64,000 bases of DNA, taken from the NCBI GenBank assembly GCA_025357755.1, contig JANXOP010000121.1:1-64000 (forward strand), read 5' to 3'. The first letter of the stretch is position 1, and each line of letters opens with the position of its first letter. The notes beneath the pieces were generated by a model. It was not told where the DNA came from and made no database searches. It saw nothing but the letters and a program-made list of their open reading frames with translations. The position numbers were made by a program, and so were the translations under genes. This document shows, one piece after another, positions 36,166 to 47,861 of the stretch. This DNA is from Kofleriaceae bacterium. Its GTDB lineage: Bacteria > Myxococcota_A > Polyangia > Haliangiales > Haliangiaceae.

Positions 36166-36603
36166 ATGCGCAGCTTCGCGGTCTTCTTCTTGGTCGCGTG
36201 CCATCAGGATCCAGTCGCGCCCGACGCGTTCTCCGGACTGTGCTCGGACCAGGTCGCTGCGGCTCCGACGTACACGAACATGCAGGAGCTGTTTCGGACG
36301 AACTGCATCGTGTGTCACGCGTCCGGCGTCGAGCTCGATCTGGCGCCGACCGTGAGCTACGCGAACCTCGTCGGGCGCAAGCCTCCGAACTATGCGAACC
36401 CGATGACCGATGAAGCGTGTGGAACGACCCTGGTCGTGCCAGGCGATCCCGACGCCAGCTACCTGTATCGCAAGCTGACGCTCGCGGCACCGTGTGCCGG
36501 ATCGCAGATGCCACTCGGCGAGCTCGGTGCGTCGTACATGTTGCAGCCGTGCGAGCTCCAGCTCGTACACGATTGGATCGCCGGCGGAGCGCTCGATAAC
36601 TGA
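36166..36603 (+). CDS. Small c-type cytochrome-like lipoprotein
   Basis: A 145-aa exported protein. The signal MRSFAVFFLVAC ends in a lipobox with Cys12. The motif CIVCHASG (C47, C50, H51) is a c-type heme-binding site, followed by SYANLVGR, the spacing usual in the planctomycete-type cytochrome c and DUF1587-like lipoproteins. Downstream PGDPDASYLYRKL and QMPLGELGA with a late Met fit the sixth-ligand region (SQMP), then a C-terminal helix with DWIAGGALDN. The same architecture recurs in the gene at 41733, so the two are probably paralogues. It stands alone between htpG and the photolyase. Confidence 0.8.
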   Translation: MRSFAVFFLVACHQDPVAPDAFSGLCSDQVAAAPTYTNMQELFRTNCIVCHASGVELDLAPTVSYANLVGRKPPNYANPMTDEACGTTLVVPGDPDASYLYRKLTLAAPCAGSQMPLGELGASYMLQPCELQLVHDWIAGGALDN

Positions 36604-39046: not shown

Positions 39047-40777
39047 GTGTCTGAAGCTTCCCTCCGCTGTTGTTCGCGGTGTCATGCGGTCTACAGGGCG
39101 GACTTCGCGCGCTGTCCCACCGATGGGGAGCCGCTCGAGCTTCGCGATGAAGATCCGCTGATCGGCACTACGATCGGCGAGCACTACGAGATCGTCGGAT
39201 TCGTCGGAGAGGGTGGCATGGGCCGCGTCTACAGCGCGCACCACACCCGCCTCCAGCGCCGTCAATTCGCGATCAAGGTGCTGATCGGAGACCTGGCCGC
39301 GACGATGTCGACGCGAATTCGGTTCGCACAGGAGGCAGATGCGGCGAGTCGCCTCGATCATCCGAACGTCGTTCCGGTCGTCGATTTCGGCAAGACCCCG
39401 ACCGGCCTGATGTTCCTCGCGATGGAGCTCGTGACAGGGCCCACGCTCGCGGAACTGATCGCGACCGATGCGCCCCTTCCGGTCGAGCGCGTGATCGGCC
39501 TGACCCGTCAGCTCTGCCTGGGCCTCGCTCACGCCCACGCTCGTGGCTTGGTCCACCGCGACTTCAAGCCCGACAACGTGGTCGTGGTTTCGGGGACGGG
39601 GCTCGAAGTGCCACGGATCTTGGATTTCGGTCTCGCGATCACGCACGACGAACCGAGTGCGCGCCTGACCACCGCGGGGATGGCCCTCGGCACGCCGTCG
39701 TATGCGTCGCCCGAGCAGACGCATCACGAACCGGTTGACGAGCGCGCAGACCTCTTCGCGCTCGGCGTGACGATGTTCGAGATGCTTTCGGGCAAGTTGC
39801 CCTTCGACGGCAACGCGATGGAGATGATCGAGCGGAACGCGAACAACACGCCACCGCCGATCGCGAGCCGCGCGATGGTCACGATCCCGCCCGCGCTCGA
39901 AGCGATCGTCACGCGCTTGATGGCGCGCCAACCCGATCATCGCTTCAACTCCGCTGTCGACGTGATCGCGGCGCTCGATACCGTGAAGCTGACCGAGCTC
40001 ATCGCCACCCCGCCGCCGCCGGTCGTCGAGAAGCGACGCCGCTGGCCGATCGTGGCGGCGATCGTCGGTTCACTCGTCGCGATCTCGGTCGTGTACGCGG
40101 CGCTGCTTCGCCATCCACCACCGCCACAGGTCGCGACCGCGACACCGATCTCGCAACCTAGCGCCCCTCCGCCACGGCCCACACGACCCATCGTCACACC
40201 CGTCACGCCTCCGGATCCGACGGTTTCGATCCCGACCCCGCCACCGACCCTCACGCCGACATCGCGACCCACGCCGCGCCCCCGTCCGCTGCCACGCGCC
40301 GTTCCCTCGGTTTCGGTCGCACCTGTGGCCGAACCGCCGCCGGTGATCGCGGAGGTGCCAAAGCCCGTCGAGGTTCTGCCGGAGCCGTCGAAGCCTGTCG
40401 AGGCCAAACCCCTGGTTCCAACCCCAGCGCCCGAGCCGCTGCCTCGCGTCAAGCTCACCGCGGCCTCGCTCGAATCGTTGACCGCTCGCGGTTCGCTGTC
40501 CACTTCGATCGTCCGTCGCTCGGTCGAACGCGCGATGTCCGAGGTCACGACCTGTGTGCGCGCATCGGCCGTCACGTCGAGCAATGCCGCCGAGGTCATC
40601 ACCGCGACGTTCATCATCGATGATCAGCGCCGCGCGACCTCGATCGCCACGACGGGATCGAACGTACTCGCCACGTGCGTGAAGAATGCGCTCGCGACCG
40701 TTCGCACCTCGGATGCTCCGGATGTTGGAACCGTCGCGGTCTCTTTGGAAATTCGGTTTACTGGAGGGTCGTCATGA
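39047..40777 (+). CDS. Membrane Ser/Thr protein kinase with zinc-ribbon and AgmX/PglI-like tail
   Basis: A 576-aa eukaryotic-type kinase. An N-terminal zinc ribbon (CCSRCHAVYRADFARCPTDG) precedes the kinase domain at residues 45-305: GEGGMGRVY, FAIKVL (ATP Lys), HRDFKPDN (catalytic loop), DFGLA and GTPSYASPEQ. A transmembrane helix (WPIVAAIVGSLVAISVVYAAL) at about 330-352 is followed by a long Pro-rich periplasmic linker. The C-terminal domain (SIVRRSVERAMSEVTTCV, ATSIATTGSNVLATCVKNAL) is like the AgmX/PglI C-terminal domain, related to TonB tails. Start GTG at 39047. It overlaps the next gene by 4 bp, so it heads the heme-barrel operon and may control it. Confidence 0.92.
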   Translation: MSEASLRCCSRCHAVYRADFARCPTDGEPLELRDEDPLIGTTIGEHYEIVGFVGEGGMGRVYSAHHTRLQRRQFAIKVLIGDLAATMSTRIRFAQEADAASRLDHPNVVPVVDFGKTPTGLMFLAMELVTGPTLAELIATDAPLPVERVIGLTRQLCLGLAHAHARGLVHRDFKPDNVVVVSGTGLEVPRILDFGLAITHDEPSARLTTAGMALGTPSYASPEQTHHEPVDERADLFALGVTMFEMLSGKLPFDGNAMEMIERNANNTPPPIASRAMVTIPPALEAIVTRLMARQPDHRFNSAVDVIAALDTVKLTELIATPPPPVVEKRRRWPIVAAIVGSLVAISVVYAALLRHPPPPQVATATPISQPSAPPPRPTRPIVTPVTPPDPTVSIPTPPPTLTPTSRPTPRPRPLPRAVPSVSVAPVAEPPPVIAEVPKPVEVLPEPSKPVEAKPLVPTPAPEPLPRVKLTAASLESLTARGSLSTSIVRRSVERAMSEVTTCVRASAVTSSNAAEVITATFIIDDQRRATSIATTGSNVLATCVKNALATVRTSDAPDVGTVAVSLEIRFTGGSS

Positions 40778-41736
40778 AGTTGCTGCTCGCGCTCGCATGC
40801 GCCGGTTGTCTCGGTCCGCTCGTGAGCGATGACCCGGCTCCGGTGACCTCGACGTCGATCCTCCCGGCCGGCACCCCGGTGCCCGTCCTCACCGACGATC
40901 CAACCGCCGCCGCGAAGATCGCCGCCGCGGATGGCGTGACCGGCACGATCGTGCGCCAGACCGCGTTCGCGCGCGGCACGCTCGTCCACGTGTGGAACTT
41001 CGGTCCCGCACCGAACCTCGCGGCGCCGCTATTCATGCTCGTCCAGAAGGACGCGGATGGGAACCTCGTGCGGATTCCACATCCAACGGTGATCGAGGCC
41101 ATACCTGGCGATCCTGGGTACAGCCCGTTCTGGGCGGTGTTCACCGTCGAGGTCACGACTGCCTATCACGGCGAGCTCCTCACCTCGTTCGCCGCGATCC
41201 AGGAAGCGCTCACGAGCGGCCTGATCAAGCCGCCGATGGCTCAGCCCTACGCCGTCAACTGTCCGATCGCCGGACCCGAGATCCGCGTCGATGTCGGCAA
41301 CGGCGCTACCGTCGGCCCGAACGCGCAATTCTACTACCTCGGCTCGCGCGTCCCGTACTTCGATTTCGGTCACATGCCGCTCGCCGGCGCCGACGTCCCC
41401 GCCGCGACGCGTGTCGTGCTTCGGCGCGAAGGCGAAGAGCCGCTGAGCGAGGTCGTGCGCCACGTCGACATCGATGGCGACGGCGACATCACCGACACGA
41501 ATGACGTCCTCGAGGACGCGGCGGCGCTCTCGCCGGTGTCACCGCGCATGCGCGAGGTCGATGTCGCGGTGGTCAAGTCGACGAGCTCGATCGACACGTC
41601 GCACAACGAGGCGAGCTCGAGCGTGACCTCACTCGATCAGCTGCTCGCACCACAACCCACGAGCATCGTCGTCGCGTACGAGATGACCGACATCTACGAG
41701 AACTGGGTCGCACAACAGACGGTCGGTGGCCTGTGA
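40774..41736 (+). CDS. Predicted lipoprotein of the heme-barrel operon
   Basis: A 320-aa exported protein whose start ATG overlaps the kinase stop (ATGA) and has GGAGG upstream. The signal MKLLLALACAGC ends in a lipobox (ACAGC). The mature protein is beta-rich and has no recognised domain. It contains a Asp-rich EF-hand-like run, DIDGDGDITDTNDVLED, which could bind calcium, and GVTGTIVRQTAFARGTLVHV. Its 3' end overlaps the next gene by 4 bp. It may be a periplasmic or surface partner of the cytochrome lipoproteins. Confidence 0.78.
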   Translation: MKLLLALACAGCLGPLVSDDPAPVTSTSILPAGTPVPVLTDDPTAAAKIAAADGVTGTIVRQTAFARGTLVHVWNFGPAPNLAAPLFMLVQKDADGNLVRIPHPTVIEAIPGDPGYSPFWAVFTVEVTTAYHGELLTSFAAIQEALTSGLIKPPMAQPYAVNCPIAGPEIRVDVGNGATVGPNAQFYYLGSRVPYFDFGHMPLAGADVPAATRVVLRREGEEPLSEVVRHVDIDGDGDITDTNDVLEDAAALSPVSPRMREVDVAVVKSTSSIDTSHNEASSSVTSLDQLLAPQPTSIVVAYEMTDIYENWVAQQTVGGL

Positions 41737-42158
41737 GAGCCCTGTTGCTCGTGTTGCTGGTGGGGTGCGTGGAGCCCGACGTCGGCGCGCCGAGTCGTGT
41801 CGCCTGCGTCGGCAGCGACTCCGATCCCGCCGTCGCGATCGATTTCCAGCGAGACGTCGTCACCGGGGTCTTGGTCGGCCATTGCGATCGCTGCCACACC
41901 CCGACCGGCGCGACCCCGATCGGGATCTCGATCGGCGGCCTCGATTTCTCGAGCGCCAGCTCCCTGCGACGCGGTGGAGTCCAGAGCGGCACCCAGATCG
42001 TCGTGCCGGGTGATCCGTGCGCGAGCATCCTCGTCCAGAAGATCGGCGCGGCACCGCCGTTTGGCGCGCGGATGCCCCTCGACGGTCCCCCGTTCCTGTC
42101 GGCCTCGCAGATCCAGGTCATCTCCGATTGGATTGCGGAAGGCGCCGCGAGTGAATAG
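41733..42158 (+). CDS. Small c-type cytochrome-like lipoprotein
   Basis: A 141-aa lipoprotein starting with GTG at 41733 (GTGA overlap). The signal MRALLLVLLVGC has the lipobox Cys12. The heme motif HCDRCHTPTG is C51-x2-C54-H55. The rest follows the layout of the lipoprotein at 36166: IVVPGDPCASILVQKI, ARMPLDGPPF and a C-terminal ISDWIAEGA. It should carry one covalent heme, likely on the periplasmic face of the outer membrane. It is coupled to both neighbours and is a candidate electron carrier for the barrel at 42465. Confidence 0.82.
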   Translation: MRALLLVLLVGCVEPDVGAPSRVACVGSDSDPAVAIDFQRDVVTGVLVGHCDRCHTPTGATPIGISIGGLDFSSASSLRRGGVQSGTQIVVPGDPCASILVQKIGAAPPFGARMPLDGPPFLSASQIQVISDWIAEGAASE

Positions 42159-42468
42159 GATCCTGGTCGCATGTGCGATGCTCTTCGGCTGTGGTGACGG
42201 TCCGCGACCTGTCGCACTCGAGAGCGGAGCGCCCACCGAGCTCACGGCCTCTTGTGCTCTCGCGGGTCGACGCTGTTCGCGCTGTCACACCATCGATCGT
42301 GTCGAGCGCGCGCATATCTCGCAGCCGGAGGCGTGGCGGGAATACGTTCATCGTATGCGGTTGATGCCGAGCAGCGGCATCCCGCCGGAAGAGGAGCTCT
42401 CGATCGTGCAGTGCCTAGTCTTTCGTAGCTCGGGCCAAGCCGGGCTCGCCCAGCTCGGAGCGCCATGA
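42151..42468 (+). CDS. Second small heme-binding lipoprotein
   Basis: A 105-aa protein. The GTG at 42151 overlaps the end of the upstream gene by 8 bp. The signal MNRILVACAMLFGC has its lipobox Cys at 14. The heme motif RRCSRCHTIDRVER (C42, C45, H46) is followed by a Met-rich YVHRMRLMPSSGIPPEEE that could offer the axial Met, and an SIVQCLVF helix. The size and fold suggest a short cytochrome c. It ends 4 bp into the start of the barrel gene. Confidence 0.8.
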   Translation: MNRILVACAMLFGCGDGPRPVALESGAPTELTASCALAGRRCSRCHTIDRVERAHISQPEAWREYVHRMRLMPSSGIPPEEELSIVQCLVFRSSGQAGLAQLGAP

Positions 42469-43628
42469 TTCGCTGGTTGTTCGCGCTCGCCCTCGTGATC
42501 ATGTTCGCGAGGATCACGCTCGCCGATGACACCGCGGCAAAGGTGGCCGATGCAGCCGAGCGCCACCTCGCGGGTTCGGTCCAGCTCGATTACCTCTACA
42601 CGCGCAACGCTGCTCAGACGATCGATCAAGGCCTCAACGGCGCGACCGCCGAGCTCTCGATGAAGCTGTCGATGGACTTCGGTGACCACGTGTCCTCGAA
42701 CGTGAAGGTCTGTTACGCGTGCCACGGCTTCGAGGTCAGCATGGCGTACTTCGATCTGCGCGCCGCCGACGAGCTCAACGTTCGGGTCGGCCGCTTCACC
42801 CCCGCGTTCGGCTCGTTCCCTCTGCGCCACGATCCGGCGAACCACGACACCAGCGACAAGCCGCTCGCCTACGACATGGGCCGCATGGTCCGGATCCGCG
42901 AGTGGAACGAAGGCGTCTTACCCGCGCCGTGGGTCGACAACGGGGTCGAGGTCAACGGCAGCCACTTCTTCGGCAAGGTCGCGCAGCTCGACTACGCCGC
43001 GTACGCGATCAACGGGCCGAAGGGCGATGCGAGCGGCGACGATTTTGATTTCAAGGAGTCGCGCTCGCCCGAGCGGTACTATGGCGACAACAACAACGAG
43101 CCGACCGTCGGCGGGCGGGTCTCCGGCACGATCGATTTCGCCGAAGGTGCGATCCTCACGGTCGGCGGCTCGATGATGGTCGGGCACTACGATCCGAAGG
43201 CGCAGCTCGGCTTCTCGATCTATGGCGCCGATGCCTCGCTCCAGCTGGGACGGCTCGTCCTGCGCTCCGAGTATCTACGCCGCCGTACCGAGGTCGCGCT
43301 CGGCGAAGATCCGGCGGCCCGCTTCAAGTACGGGCCCGGTGCGAACGGGCGCTACTCCGATTTCGTGATCAAGGACGGCTTCGATGCCGAGGCCGAGCTC
43401 AAGCTCGCGAAGTTCTCGCTCATCGGTCGATGGGATGGCTTGCGCCGGGTCGGCAATGTCCTCGCGAACAGCGATCTGCGATCGCGCAGCGCGATCCTGC
43501 GCTACACCGCCGGCATCGCGTACAAGCTCTCCGGTGCGCTGCGCTTGAAGACGAGCGTCGAGTGGTACGACTTCAGTGACTTCGAGGACGAGCTCGCGAT
43601 CCACGTCGGCGTCGCCGGGCCGTTCTAG
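42465..43628 (+). CDS. Outer-membrane beta-barrel with an internal c-type heme motif
   Basis: A 387-aa protein with a signal peptide (LFALALVIMFARITLA). A porin-like barrel follows: strands such as AGSVQLDYLYTRNA, DELNVRVGRFTPAFGSFPL, VNGSHFFGKVAQLDYAAYAI and LKTSVEWYDFSDF, ending HVGVAGPF with a terminal Phe. A CYACH motif lies at residues 83-87 inside the barrel sequence, so the mature protein may bind heme. The combination of a barrel and small cytochromes in one coupled operon resembles the logic of porin-cytochrome electron conduits, though it is not the MtrB family. The ATG overlaps the previous gene by 4 bp. Confidence 0.82.
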   Translation: MIRWLFALALVIMFARITLADDTAAKVADAAERHLAGSVQLDYLYTRNAAQTIDQGLNGATAELSMKLSMDFGDHVSSNVKVCYACHGFEVSMAYFDLRAADELNVRVGRFTPAFGSFPLRHDPANHDTSDKPLAYDMGRMVRIREWNEGVLPAPWVDNGVEVNGSHFFGKVAQLDYAAYAINGPKGDASGDDFDFKESRSPERYYGDNNNEPTVGGRVSGTIDFAEGAILTVGGSMMVGHYDPKAQLGFSIYGADASLQLGRLVLRSEYLRRRTEVALGEDPAARFKYGPGANGRYSDFVIKDGFDAEAELKLAKFSLIGRWDGLRRVGNVLANSDLRSRSAILRYTAGIAYKLSGALRLKTSVEWYDFSDFEDELAIHVGVAGPF

Positions 43629-46600
43629 TCAGCGCTTCGCAAGACCGGCTGCGATGGTGCGAGCGATCGTCGGATCAGCTTCCATCGCGGCCGCCCAGGC
43701 GCGCGCGACCTCCATGTAGCCCGCATCGTCGAGATCGAACTGGGCGAGGGCTTCTTTCGGGGCGAGGGCCGCGAGATCGCGAAGCAGTGCGACGTAGTCA
43801 CTCGTGCGCGAGACCTTGCCGCCCGGCATCACCGTGCGATCGACAAACGTCGGCGGTGGCGGAGCGGCTTCGCCCAAGACGACGCCGCCGCGCGCGCGGA
43901 ACTCCTGGTAGAACGCCTCGCGGGTCATGCGATCACCGAGCCGCGGCACCGGATCGCGGGGGAAGTAGGCCTCTTCGCGAATCTGCAGCGCGAGGCAACG
44001 CGCGAGCAGTGCCTCCTTGTCCATCGTGCCAGCGGAATCCGCGAGCACCGCGATCGCGGCCGCCCGCGCACGCGCGGTGACCTCGATCTGATTCTCCGAG
44101 CTGTACCGAAATCGCGTCGCACGCAGTGCGCCGCGGCGCACGCGCCAGCTCTTGTCGCCGAGCTTTGCCGCCGCCGCCGCGTGATCTCCCGCCTCGAGCA
44201 ACGCGTAGATCGGATCGCGCACCTTGGTGGTGGGGGGCGCCGCGACCGGTGCCGGGACGTGCCGCGTGCGCGCACGCTCGAGGGTCGCGGCAAACCCGGC
44301 AGCGTTGGCGGGCAAGGGATTCTTCGCGACCGCGCGTTCGGCGAGCTCGGCTGCCTCGGCGAACTTGCCCTGGCCGATGTACGCGCACGCGAGGTGGTTC
44401 CAGCTGTTCGTCTGCCAGGTGAGGTCATCCCCCGCGAGCGTCGAGAGCTGCTTCGCGATCACTTCGCAGGTCGCATACTCGCCGACCTCGTCGAGCACGC
44501 CCGCGTAGGCGTCAAGCTGGCTCGGATCGAAGGCTTCCGGATCGAGCTGATACGCGAGCCGATACGCGCGCTCCGTGCGTGGATTATCCATCGCACCGTA
44601 GGCGATGCCACCGTAGGTCAGCCACTGATCGGCGCGGTTGTACCAGCGGCTCGCGAAGTCGAGCACCGCCATCGCCTCGGCGACATGACCCGCTCGATAC
44701 AGCGTGCCCGAGAGGATCTGGCTCGCCTCCTCGCGCGTCGCACGCACGAGGTGGTGCATCGCATCGAACACCTTGCCCTGTTGCGCGAGCGCGAGCCCGA
44801 GGTTGCGATGGGCCTCCGCATTGTCGGGCTCCACCGCCACGCCCCAGCGCCCGAGCTTCTCGGCGCGCGCGGCATCACCGTGCTGGAGCGCATCGAAGCA
44901 CTGGGCCGAGACCTGCTCGAACTGCATCGGCACGTCGAGGCCCGAGGTCCGCCAGCGCTCGCGCAGGGTCTCGAGTTGGGTGTCGCGCCAGCTCGCACCG
45001 CGCGGGGCAGCGGCACGCAGATGATTCGACAGCACGACGAGCGCCGCCGGTGCGCGCCCCGCATCGAAGAGCACCCGCGCGAGATGCAGGCAGGGCACCG
45101 CCGTGATGCCGTCGCCGAGATAACAGGCGGTGTGCAGGGCATCGATCGCCTCTTCGGTCTCGATCTCGCGCGCCGCGAGCTGCGCCACGATCGCATCGGC
45201 CCACTCGTCGACGCCCGCGCTGCCGGTGTGGCTCGCGAGTCGAGAAGCCTGCGCGACGACCTTGCTCGCCCAGTTCGCTTGGCGTTCGCGATGTTCGCGG
45301 GCGACCGACCACGACAACACGGTGGTCTCCTCGGGCCCGAGGATCCGCGCCGCGACGGTCGGGAAATCGCGCACGAAGCCCGCGACGTCACCCGCGCTGC
45401 GTTCGTCGATCCCGAGCGCGCGCTCGACCGTGCCGAGCCACATCGCGCCGAGCCAGCGATCGACACGGCGAAGCAGGGGCTCGATCGCGGCGCACACCGC
45501 ACGCGCATCGCGATCGGGTAGCGCATGGCGATAGCGAGCCACGAGTGCGAGCGCCTCACCCGCGACCGTGCGCAACGCACCCGCGATCGTCGTCGGCGCG
45601 AACGTGGTCGAGCTGAGGTAGCGAGCCAGCGCTTGGGCTGCCGCGTACGCGGCCGCCTGCGCGAGCGCGGTATGGTCATTCTCGGCCGCCTCGCTGAACA
45701 CCACCTCGAGCCAGCGCGCGACGAGCGCGTCACCGCGCGCTAGCTCGTCGGCGATATCGAAGCCTGACGGTTGGGTCTTGCGCAGGTTGCCGAGCTCGTT
45801 GAAGAGCGCATCGAGCTGGCGCCGGCCGCGGGTCTCCGGCGCGAAGCCGTTCATCCAGACCGGCTCGTAGGGAAGCGGCGTGGCCTTCTCGCCCTTGGCG
45901 CCCGCGAGCGCGCGCTCGACGATGCCGCTGCGCGCCGCCTGCGGTACGAAGTCCGCCGCGATCCGCGCCATCCTTCGCGCGAGCGTGGGCGCTCCGATCG
46001 CGACGCGCTCGGCGAGCGCGGCCTCGATCACGTCGATCGGGGTGCCCGCCATCGCGAGGCCGCACCGCGCGATCGCGGTGTGGGCGTCGCGTCCCGGCGA
46101 GGTGAGCTGTGCGCGCCACAGCTCCTCGATGCCGCGTCGATGTTCACCCGCCGAGATCAGCGAGCGCGCCGCGGCGAGCCGCGCCACGGGAGCGCACGAA
46201 TCGCGACCGAGGCCGAACTGCGCCCACGCGAGTGCGACTTCACCTTCGCGGCCGAGCGCGACGAGCGCCTCGAGAAAGATCGCGACATCGACCGAATTTC
46301 CGGGCTCGATCCGTCCGAAGCCTTCGACCGCGCGCGCTTCGTCGCCACGGAAGTAGCCTTCCCGCGCGTAGCACCACGCGACGTACCGCGGATCGCGCTT
46401 CCAGGTCTGCAAGATCTTGGTGTGGAATGGCCAGCTCGCTTCGCGCCCCTCGAGCCGATTCGCGCGCAACGCGATCGCTTCGTCTAGCCGGCCCGCATTC
46501 ATCAGCGCGTTCGAGCTGCGCAGATCGATGTGGATCTGGTCCGGGTACCATGGCAGCCCCGGGTCCATCGGACAGCCATGCGCCGAGGACGACCTCGTCG

Positions 46601-47861
46601 CTTGCTCGAGCCACGCGCCTTCACGATCGGTGCGCTCGTGCAGATCGAGCAGCGCCAGGTGCGCGCGTGGATCCTCGCCGTGGAGGGCGACGCCGCGCTC
46701 GACGAGCCGCAGCCCCTCTTCGACGCGACCGCCCTCGCACAGCCGATCGGCGGCCACTTCGAGTGCATCCAAGACCGCGGGCCGGCAGAGCGACGCCATG
46801 CCAGCCGCGGCCACCGCTTCGAGCTCGGTCGGTGCGGTGAGCGCGCCGATCGGATCGTCGCTATCGGTCTCGCCGACGAGCTCTTCGTACGGCCGGGCCC
46901 ACCCCGGCGCCGCCGCGATGACCTGGCGGAGCAGCGCGAAGTCGCGCCCCTGCGGAGCCGTGCGCTCGAACCGCGAGAACAAGGCCTGCGGATGATCCGG
47001 ATCGACCGCGAGCAGATCGTCGGCCAGATCTTCCCGCAGCGCGAGCTCGAGCAAGCGCAGCGTCGGCGCACGGAACGCGACCGGCAAGCGGTTGATCAAG
47101 GGCCGCGCGATCGAACGGCGGCGTTCGATCTCTGGCAGCGGACCATCCATCGTCGAATCGATCGTCGATTCGACCGGCGGGGGCTCCGCGAGCTCGGTGG
47201 CGAGCGCCTCGCCGGTGATCGCGAGCGTGTCACCCGACTCGTCATCCTCGTCTGGGCGATCGATGTTCTCGCCCACGAAGGTCGGTTCGTCCGCGACGAT
47301 CGCCAAGCTGAACAGCGGCTGGTGCGCTACCGGTAGGGCCCACGCGCGTGCCTGCTCGACGAGCGTGGGCCCGATCACGCGGACCACCGCGACGAGCTCG
47401 TCGGCAGTGACCGCCTCGAACTTCCGCGCGGGCACGCCGAGCCCGCGCGCGGTCCACCAGGCCGCGAGTGCTTGCTGGATCTGTTCGCCCGTACTGCGAC
47501 CGAGCGCATCGAAGGTCTCTTGCTTGCCGTCGCGGCCGAGCGCGTGCAGGCGCACCACGCCGGCCTTCGCGCCGAGGCCGAGCTCGAGCCAGATCACCTC
47601 GTCGCGACGCGTCGGTGCGTAGAACGGATCGCTCGGCTTGCCGCCGCGGCCCGCATGCTGTGGCGCGAAGTGCCCGTCAGACGGAAACAGCGGCGTCGCA
47701 TCGGCGTCGAGCACCGCGAGGCGCGGATGGCGCTGCAGGAGCTCGATGCACGCGGTCCACAGCAACACCGCGGCTTCGCGCTCGTACGCTTGATCGGGCC
47801 CTTCGATCTTGACCTCGGGCAGGAGCACCGCGACGCGATGCGGTTTGGGGAGAGCGGCCAC
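43629..47861 (-). CDS. Very large TPR-repeat protein
   Basis: A 1410-aa cytoplasmic-looking protein without a signal peptide. The start is GTG at 47861, overlapping the upstream stop as TAGTG with GGAGG upstream. Residues 1-170 form an alpha/beta domain (VAVLLPEVKIEGPDQAYERE) of unknown type. An acidic linker with DEDDESGDTLA follows. The remainder is mostly helical TPR-like repeats, clearest near the C-terminus: NAEAHRNLGLALAQQGKVFD, HLACAYIGQGKFAEAAELAE. No catalytic motif is seen. It is coupled to the HEAT/BRCT protein, and the pair resembles, in size and layout, the SUFU/HEAT pair at 18076-24908. Confidence 0.78.
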   Translation of the reverse strand: MAALPKPHRVAVLLPEVKIEGPDQAYEREAAVLLWTACIELLQRHPRLAVLDADATPLFPSDGHFAPQHAGRGGKPSDPFYAPTRRDEVIWLELGLGAKAGVVRLHALGRDGKQETFDALGRSTGEQIQQALAAWWTARGLGVPARKFEAVTADELVAVVRVIGPTLVEQARAWALPVAHQPLFSLAIVADEPTFVGENIDRPDEDDESGDTLAITGEALATELAEPPPVESTIDSTMDGPLPEIERRRSIARPLINRLPVAFRAPTLRLLELALREDLADDLLAVDPDHPQALFSRFERTAPQGRDFALLRQVIAAAPGWARPYEELVGETDSDDPIGALTAPTELEAVAAAGMASLCRPAVLDALEVAADRLCEGGRVEEGLRLVERGVALHGEDPRAHLALLDLHERTDREGAWLEQATRSSSAHGCPMDPGLPWYPDQIHIDLRSSNALMNAGRLDEAIALRANRLEGREASWPFHTKILQTWKRDPRYVAWCYAREGYFRGDEARAVEGFGRIEPGNSVDVAIFLEALVALGREGEVALAWAQFGLGRDSCAPVARLAAARSLISAGEHRRGIEELWRAQLTSPGRDAHTAIARCGLAMAGTPIDVIEAALAERVAIGAPTLARRMARIAADFVPQAARSGIVERALAGAKGEKATPLPYEPVWMNGFAPETRGRRQLDALFNELGNLRKTQPSGFDIADELARGDALVARWLEVVFSEAAENDHTALAQAAAYAAAQALARYLSSTTFAPTTIAGALRTVAGEALALVARYRHALPDRDARAVCAAIEPLLRRVDRWLGAMWLGTVERALGIDERSAGDVAGFVRDFPTVAARILGPEETTVLSWSVAREHRERQANWASKVVAQASRLASHTGSAGVDEWADAIVAQLAAREIETEEAIDALHTACYLGDGITAVPCLHLARVLFDAGRAPAALVVLSNHLRAAAPRGASWRDTQLETLRERWRTSGLDVPMQFEQVSAQCFDALQHGDAARAEKLGRWGVAVEPDNAEAHRNLGLALAQQGKVFDAMHHLVRATREEASQILSGTLYRAGHVAEAMAVLDFASRWYNRADQWLTYGGIAYGAMDNPRTERAYRLAYQLDPEAFDPSQLDAYAGVLDEVGEYATCEVIAKQLSTLAGDDLTWQTNSWNHLACAYIGQGKFAEAAELAERAVAKNPLPANAAGFAATLERARTRHVPAPVAAPPTTKVRDPIYALLEAGDHAAAAAKLGDKSWRVRRGALRATRFRYSSENQIEVTARARAAAIAVLADSAGTMDKEALLARCLALQIREEAYFPRDPVPRLGDRMTREAFYQEFRARGGVVLGEAAPPPPTFVDRTVMPGGKVSRTSDYVALLRDLAALAPKEALAQFDLDDAGYMEVARAWAAAMEADPTIARTIAAGLAKR

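Follow-up and report, generated by a model that had tools for sequence, protein, structure and literature searches.

The window analysed here, a stretch of 64,000 nucleotides from a Kofleriaceae bacterium (contig JANXOP010000121.1), carries a five-gene operon (39047-43628, plus strand) which probably encodes an unrecognised kind of outer-membrane electron gate or redox sensor. The last gene specifies a predicted porin with a c-type heme motif, CYACH, inside its own sequence, and it is preceded by the genes for a transmembrane Ser/Thr kinase, a non-heme lipoprotein and two mono-heme lipoproteins. Translation showed that each start overlaps the preceding stop by 4-8 bases, in agreement with a preliminary description of this DNA in which five genes headed by a kinase were said to overlap end to end. 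That description also took the partners of the barrel to be heme lipoproteins, which holds for genes 3 and 4 and not for gene 2, where no heme motif is present. The source genome, labelled G000 below, is myxobacterium-like. The features of the operon are the following:

39047-40777, plus strand: Ser/Thr kinase, first gene of the operon, GTG start (Pfam Pkinase, E=9e-40)
40499-40759, plus strand: periplasmic tail of the kinase, AgmX/PglI-like (TonB-C-like; NF033768, E=0.0077), kept in homologous loci
40774-41736, plus strand: gene 2 lipoprotein (LP2), non-heme, DUF7482-like, without CxxCH, an optional member of the module
41733-42158, plus strand: CYT3, mono-heme c-type lipoprotein related to FoxE, GTG start (PSCyt1 above its curated cut-off)
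41883-41897, plus strand: heme motif of CYT3, CDRCH, from the sequence
42151-42468, plus strand: CYT4, small mono-heme c-type lipoprotein, GTG start
42274-42288, plus strand: heme motif of CYT4, CSRCH, from the sequence
42465-43628, plus strand: porin-like outer-membrane barrel of 387 residues bearing a CxxCH (AlphaFold2 model, Foldseek, weak match to Porin_O_P)
42711-42725, plus strand: CYACH of the barrel, residues 83-87, predicted covalent heme site in strand 3 and the strand 3-4 hairpin
42798-42935, plus strand: loop L3 of the barrel, residues 112-157, with invariant H127 and M138, a candidate plug over the heme

The CYACH motif does lie within the barrel as had been claimed, and C83 and C86 are the only cysteines of this protein, which has a signal-peptide-like N terminus. 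Homologues were gathered by whole-protein similarity from a scan of species genomes, 193 relatives and 379 genomes of the phylum, and 48 distinct barrels were aligned, drawn from several of the phylum's families and each at least 35% identical to the window barrel or to one of its near relatives. Conservation of CxxCH among such homologues had been set beforehand as the test of the heme proposal, and C83, C86 and H87 were kept in 48/48, so that the barrel displays one mark of a c-type cytochrome, a conserved CxxCH in an exported protein. A search pattern that included CYACHGFE helped to find six of the loci; the others were chosen independently of the motif. Nearly all mature barrels have exactly two cysteines, both in the CxxCH; one row has three and one has none, and the latter is put down to an artefact of the start pattern, which matched past the motif, since the alignment shows the motif in every row. 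A partial and apparently frame-shifted copy (L027) has no motif in the frame read. A chance occurrence of CxxCH in the barrel was rejected on this conservation and on the almost complete lack of other cysteines. It had been suggested that the operon could be a previously undescribed outer-membrane electron conduit under Ser/Thr kinase control, and no library or paper that we searched describes this barrel; a sequence search of the PDB with it gave no match.

The AlphaFold2 model of the barrel, computed from seven sequences (that of the window and six relatives), has 16 strands with a pLDDT of 68 and a pTM of 0.69, and its Foldseek matches include OmpT, chitoporin, OprP, OprO and OmpF. Porin_O_P (PF07396) is matched by all seven aligned barrels, the best relative reaching E=3e-4, and the window barrel scores 13.9 bits, below the gathering cut-off of 20.9. 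Heme motifs are, to our knowledge, not characteristic of the Porin_O_P family. In the model strand 3 spans residues 76-86, followed by a turn (87-89) and strand 4 (90-100), and in normal porin topology the hairpin formed by these two strands is extracellular. Independently of the model, strand 3 alternates between N79, K81, C83 and A/G85 on one side and the mostly hydrophobic V80, V82 and Y84 on the other, and residue 85 is always A, G or S. This alternation of polar and hydrophobic residues suggests that C83 faces the lumen, with a small residue at position 85 where the heme must fit.

Loop L3 is conserved far above a normal extracellular loop (RHDPANH..DKPLxYDMGRM), and its H127 and M138 are each present in all 48 barrels, which makes them candidate sixth ligands of the heme. 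The simplest reading is that L3 and the strand 3-4 hairpin would hold the heme between them in the lumen, its sixth ligand being H127 or M138.

The two small cytochromes have relatives of known structure. The CYT3 family profile aligns with FoxE (PDB 5mab, E=3e-16), a diheme cytochrome that oxidises Fe(II), at each of its two heme domains. CYT3 is homologous to it over the heme domain, but differs in being a mono-heme lipoprotein and in having, in many relatives, an unusual heme motif. In about 40% of the CYT3 relatives this motif is CxCH, one residue short of CxxCH, while the remaining features are kept (loci L040, L042, L045, L046, L048, L052, L058, L059, L062, L104, L111-L114 and L116-L118). 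When mapped on the barrel tree, the two forms have switched at least five times. A CxCH heme motif was described nowhere in the literature searched, most subscription papers being outside its coverage. M114 of CYT3 is kept in 44/45 relatives and is the probable distal ligand. The CYT4 family profile matches a cytochrome c (3a9f, E=4.4e-10) and also 7uea, quinohemoprotein amine dehydrogenase and SorB; here M69, found in 34/34 relatives, is likewise the probable distal ligand. Two extra cysteines in each of CYT3 and CYT4 have apparently been gained and lost together (compare L002 and L054 with the window), which suggests a disulfide. At 36166-36603 of the window, 2.4 kb upstream of the operon, a paralogue of CYT3 (E=2.7e-11) is encoded, which is also a mono-heme lipoprotein (CIVCH).

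The kinase has a zinc-ribbon-like N terminus, a Pkinase domain (residues 47-301; 137 bits against a cut-off of 31.7), a transmembrane helix (residues 333-354, read from the sequence as a hydrophobic segment), a proline-rich linker and a tail (residues 485-571). Domain and helix together identify it as a transmembrane Ser/Thr kinase. Its N-terminal CSRCH was rejected as a heme site, being on the cytoplasmic side and within a zinc-ribbon-like CxxC...CPxDG. The tail resembles the C-terminal domain of AgmX/GltJ and PglI/GltG, membrane proteins of the gliding machinery (NF033768; PMC3169522), and the weak match of the window tail spans nearly the whole NF033768 profile. However, the tail is here fused to a kinase, and every tail tested scores under the curated NCBI cut-off of 40 bits, with 16.3 bits in the window and 25-29 bits in L104, L053 and L037.

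The association of these genes is not peculiar to the window. CYT3 and/or CYT4 adjoin the barrel wherever the contig permits, and LP2 is often present too. The main orders are kinase-(LP2)-CYT3-(CYT4)-barrel and kinase-barrel-LP2-CYT3-CYT4, and CYT4-barrel-LP2-CYT3 occurs in few loci (L040, L042, L045). Immediately upstream, every locus that has sufficient sequence shows a kinase or its tail, and the tail profile scores above 35 bits at the upstream edge of the module in 41 of the 47 loci, these loci being related by descent so that the counts are not independent events. The exceptions are L060, with a kinase lacking the tail, L061, whose kinase has a weak tail, and L041, L072, L074 and L110, which are cut by a contig end. 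In G000 there are at least 154 kinase-domain matches and 28 matches to the tail model; as the latter are so few, the pairing of kinase and tail at one module is unlikely to be due to the abundance of kinases. Chance adjacency of the kinase was rejected because the kinase recurs in all informative loci, and the proposal that the operon is headed by a Ser/Thr kinase can be extended, the kinase belonging to a conserved module. The module is patchy across the phylum.

Related barrels (23-30% identity) that have no CxxCH also exist, and two of them, in genomes G150 and G325, adjoin cytochromes similar to CYT3 and CYT4:

L064:5350-6393: sister barrel without CxxCH, having PC[LI]TH at about the same place
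L119:5158-6354: sister barrel without CxxCH, having PC[LI]TH at about the same place

These two are homologous to the CxxCH barrels (hhalign 99%, E=1.8e-18), and further c-type cytochromes are encoded beside them together with the CYT3/CYT4-like lipoproteins. An additional search of 189 genomes yielded no more sister barrels lacking CxxCH beyond that of G325. One line may have acquired the in-barrel heme, or lost it, and the association with cytochromes may be older than the heme in the barrel.

Three groups of known proteins invite comparison. Cyc2 and Cyc572 (PMC8406198, PMC10654088), proteins of iron oxidisers in which a mono-heme cytochrome is fused to a porin, likewise combine one c-type motif and a 16-stranded porin in a single chain, and the window barrel shares with Cyc2 a structural resemblance to porins of the OprO/OprP type. 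Cyc2 has, however, an N-terminal cytochrome domain with AXPXFAR[Q/K][T/Y] before the CXXCH and PXL after it (PMC8406198), whereas the motif of our barrel is in strand 3, some 47-56 residues past the start of strand 1. Neither PXFAR[Q/K][T/Y] upstream nor PXL downstream of CXXCH was found in any of the 48 barrels (0/48 for either), and membership of Cyc2 was rejected on these diagnostic motifs and on the position of the heme. The MtrCAB, MtoAB and Pcc systems (PMC8406198, PMC4245776) also place an outer-membrane barrel and c-type cytochromes in one gene cluster, but their cytochromes are multiheme and their porin is separate (26 strands in Mtr/Mto), while here the motif is in the barrel, the partners are mono-heme and no multiheme periplasmic cytochrome is encoded with the porin. 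OprP and OprO of the Porin_O_P family have a similar predicted fold, the difference being the very weak sequence match noted above. By analogy, the window barrel would work like a cytochrome-porin without being a Cyc2, and single-chain heme porins as such are already known. Both the placing of a heme in the barrel wall and the kinase module appear to be new within what was searched; no in-barrel heme porin was found in that literature, with the coverage already given.

The reading that we favour, and consider somewhat probable, is an outer-membrane electron gate that has one heme and a kinase of its own, with electrons more likely flowing inward. The sequences establish which genes are present and overlapping, the conserved motif and gene order, and the architecture of the kinase; the attachment of the heme, its position in the lumen, its ligands, the flow of electrons and its direction, and the coupling to the kinase, which may control the conduit or be controlled by it, are what we infer. 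The barrel heme would exchange electrons with a small external reductant or shuttle reaching the pore and would pass them on the periplasmic side to the FoxE-like CYT3 and the SorB/c551-like CYT4, both probably Met-ligated, which would hand them on to the respiratory chain. The kinase spans the inner membrane, and its proline-rich linker and tail could extend as far as the complex in the outer membrane and inform the cytoplasm of its state. The inward direction is the likelier because the partners resemble high-potential cytochromes, a weak argument by analogy.

Several observations weigh against such a gate. CYT3, CYT4 and LP2 are each absent from some loci, and the module seems dispensable because it has decayed in a complete genome: in G162, a single contig of 10.33 Mb, the decayed copy (L062:8613-9290) has lost CYT4 and the heme half of the barrel through a deletion, which fuses the middle of CYT3 directly to the C-terminal portion of the barrel. 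The predicted barrel structure contains no heme and has moderate confidence. For rapid electron transfer, the distance between a periplasmic cytochrome and a heme placed at the top of the strand 3-4 hairpin may be too great. The direction of the electrons is a guess from homology, and the conduit as a whole is a proposal drawn from sequence.

Among the rival explanations, a sensor has to be taken seriously because the kinase is constant across the loci, although we rate it as unlikely. The heme barrel and its cytochromes would mainly sense an oxidant, a reductant or a gas (O2, NO, H2O2) outside the cell and relay this by way of the kinase, with bulk electron flow not being the purpose. The kinase at the head of every informative locus, nearly always with its periplasmic tail, would suit this, as would a barrel with one heme only beside two small cytochromes, and the patchy distribution; yet two cytochromes related to electron-transfer partners exceed what a sensor needs. 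No more probable is a conduit running outward, which would supply external acceptors or secreted oxidative enzymes with electrons. Its anatomy would be identical and sequence cannot tell direction, but the resemblance of the partners to high-potential cytochromes (FoxE, SorB and the cytochrome c of green sulfur bacteria) and the want of a multiheme partner in the operon speak against export. It is also conceivable, at a similarly low likelihood, that gate and sensor are one: a covalent heme in the barrel wall, physically read across the periplasm by the TonB-like tail of the kinase, would make a trans-envelope sensor-conduit and a class of heme protein and kinase signalling not described before.

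Two further explanations concern the heme itself. A heme porin with a catalytic, peroxidase-like function instead of electron transfer would agree with a single heme in the pore, where a coordination site is possibly open if neither H127 nor M138 binds, but both of these candidate sixth ligands are invariant and the barrel heme has cytochrome partners, which leaves catalysis scarcely probable. Least probable of all is that the CxxCH of the barrel binds another metal or forms a disulfide. The PC[LI]TH that some related barrels keep at a similar place beside cytochromes would favour it, while the joint retention of C, C and H in 48/48 barrels, the c-type partners and the c-type heme maturation machinery of the same genome, in which genes of PF01578 (c-type heme assembly/attachment) were found, argue for heme.

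Electrons are known to cross the outer membrane along a multiheme wire housed in a separate barrel or by means of the small N-terminal heme domain of Cyc2, and a heme in the barrel wall, if true, would be a third design. It would also raise the matter of how a heme-bearing strand matures before the barrel-assembly machinery inserts it, and would point to a redox role in a phylum for which the papers searched describe no such system. The near-constant tailed kinase, for its part, makes the module a system in which outer-membrane-to-cytoplasm signalling can be tested.

In LP2 the lipobox cysteine C12 is conserved, and all nine relatives scanned match PF24298 (DUF7482), the best at E=3.8e-7. Its fold prediction, made from two sequences, had a pLDDT of 30, too poor for any proposal of function. 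Directly 3' of the barrel, and outside the operon, a convergent gene (43629-47861 of the window, minus strand) encodes a TPR protein of 1410 residues.

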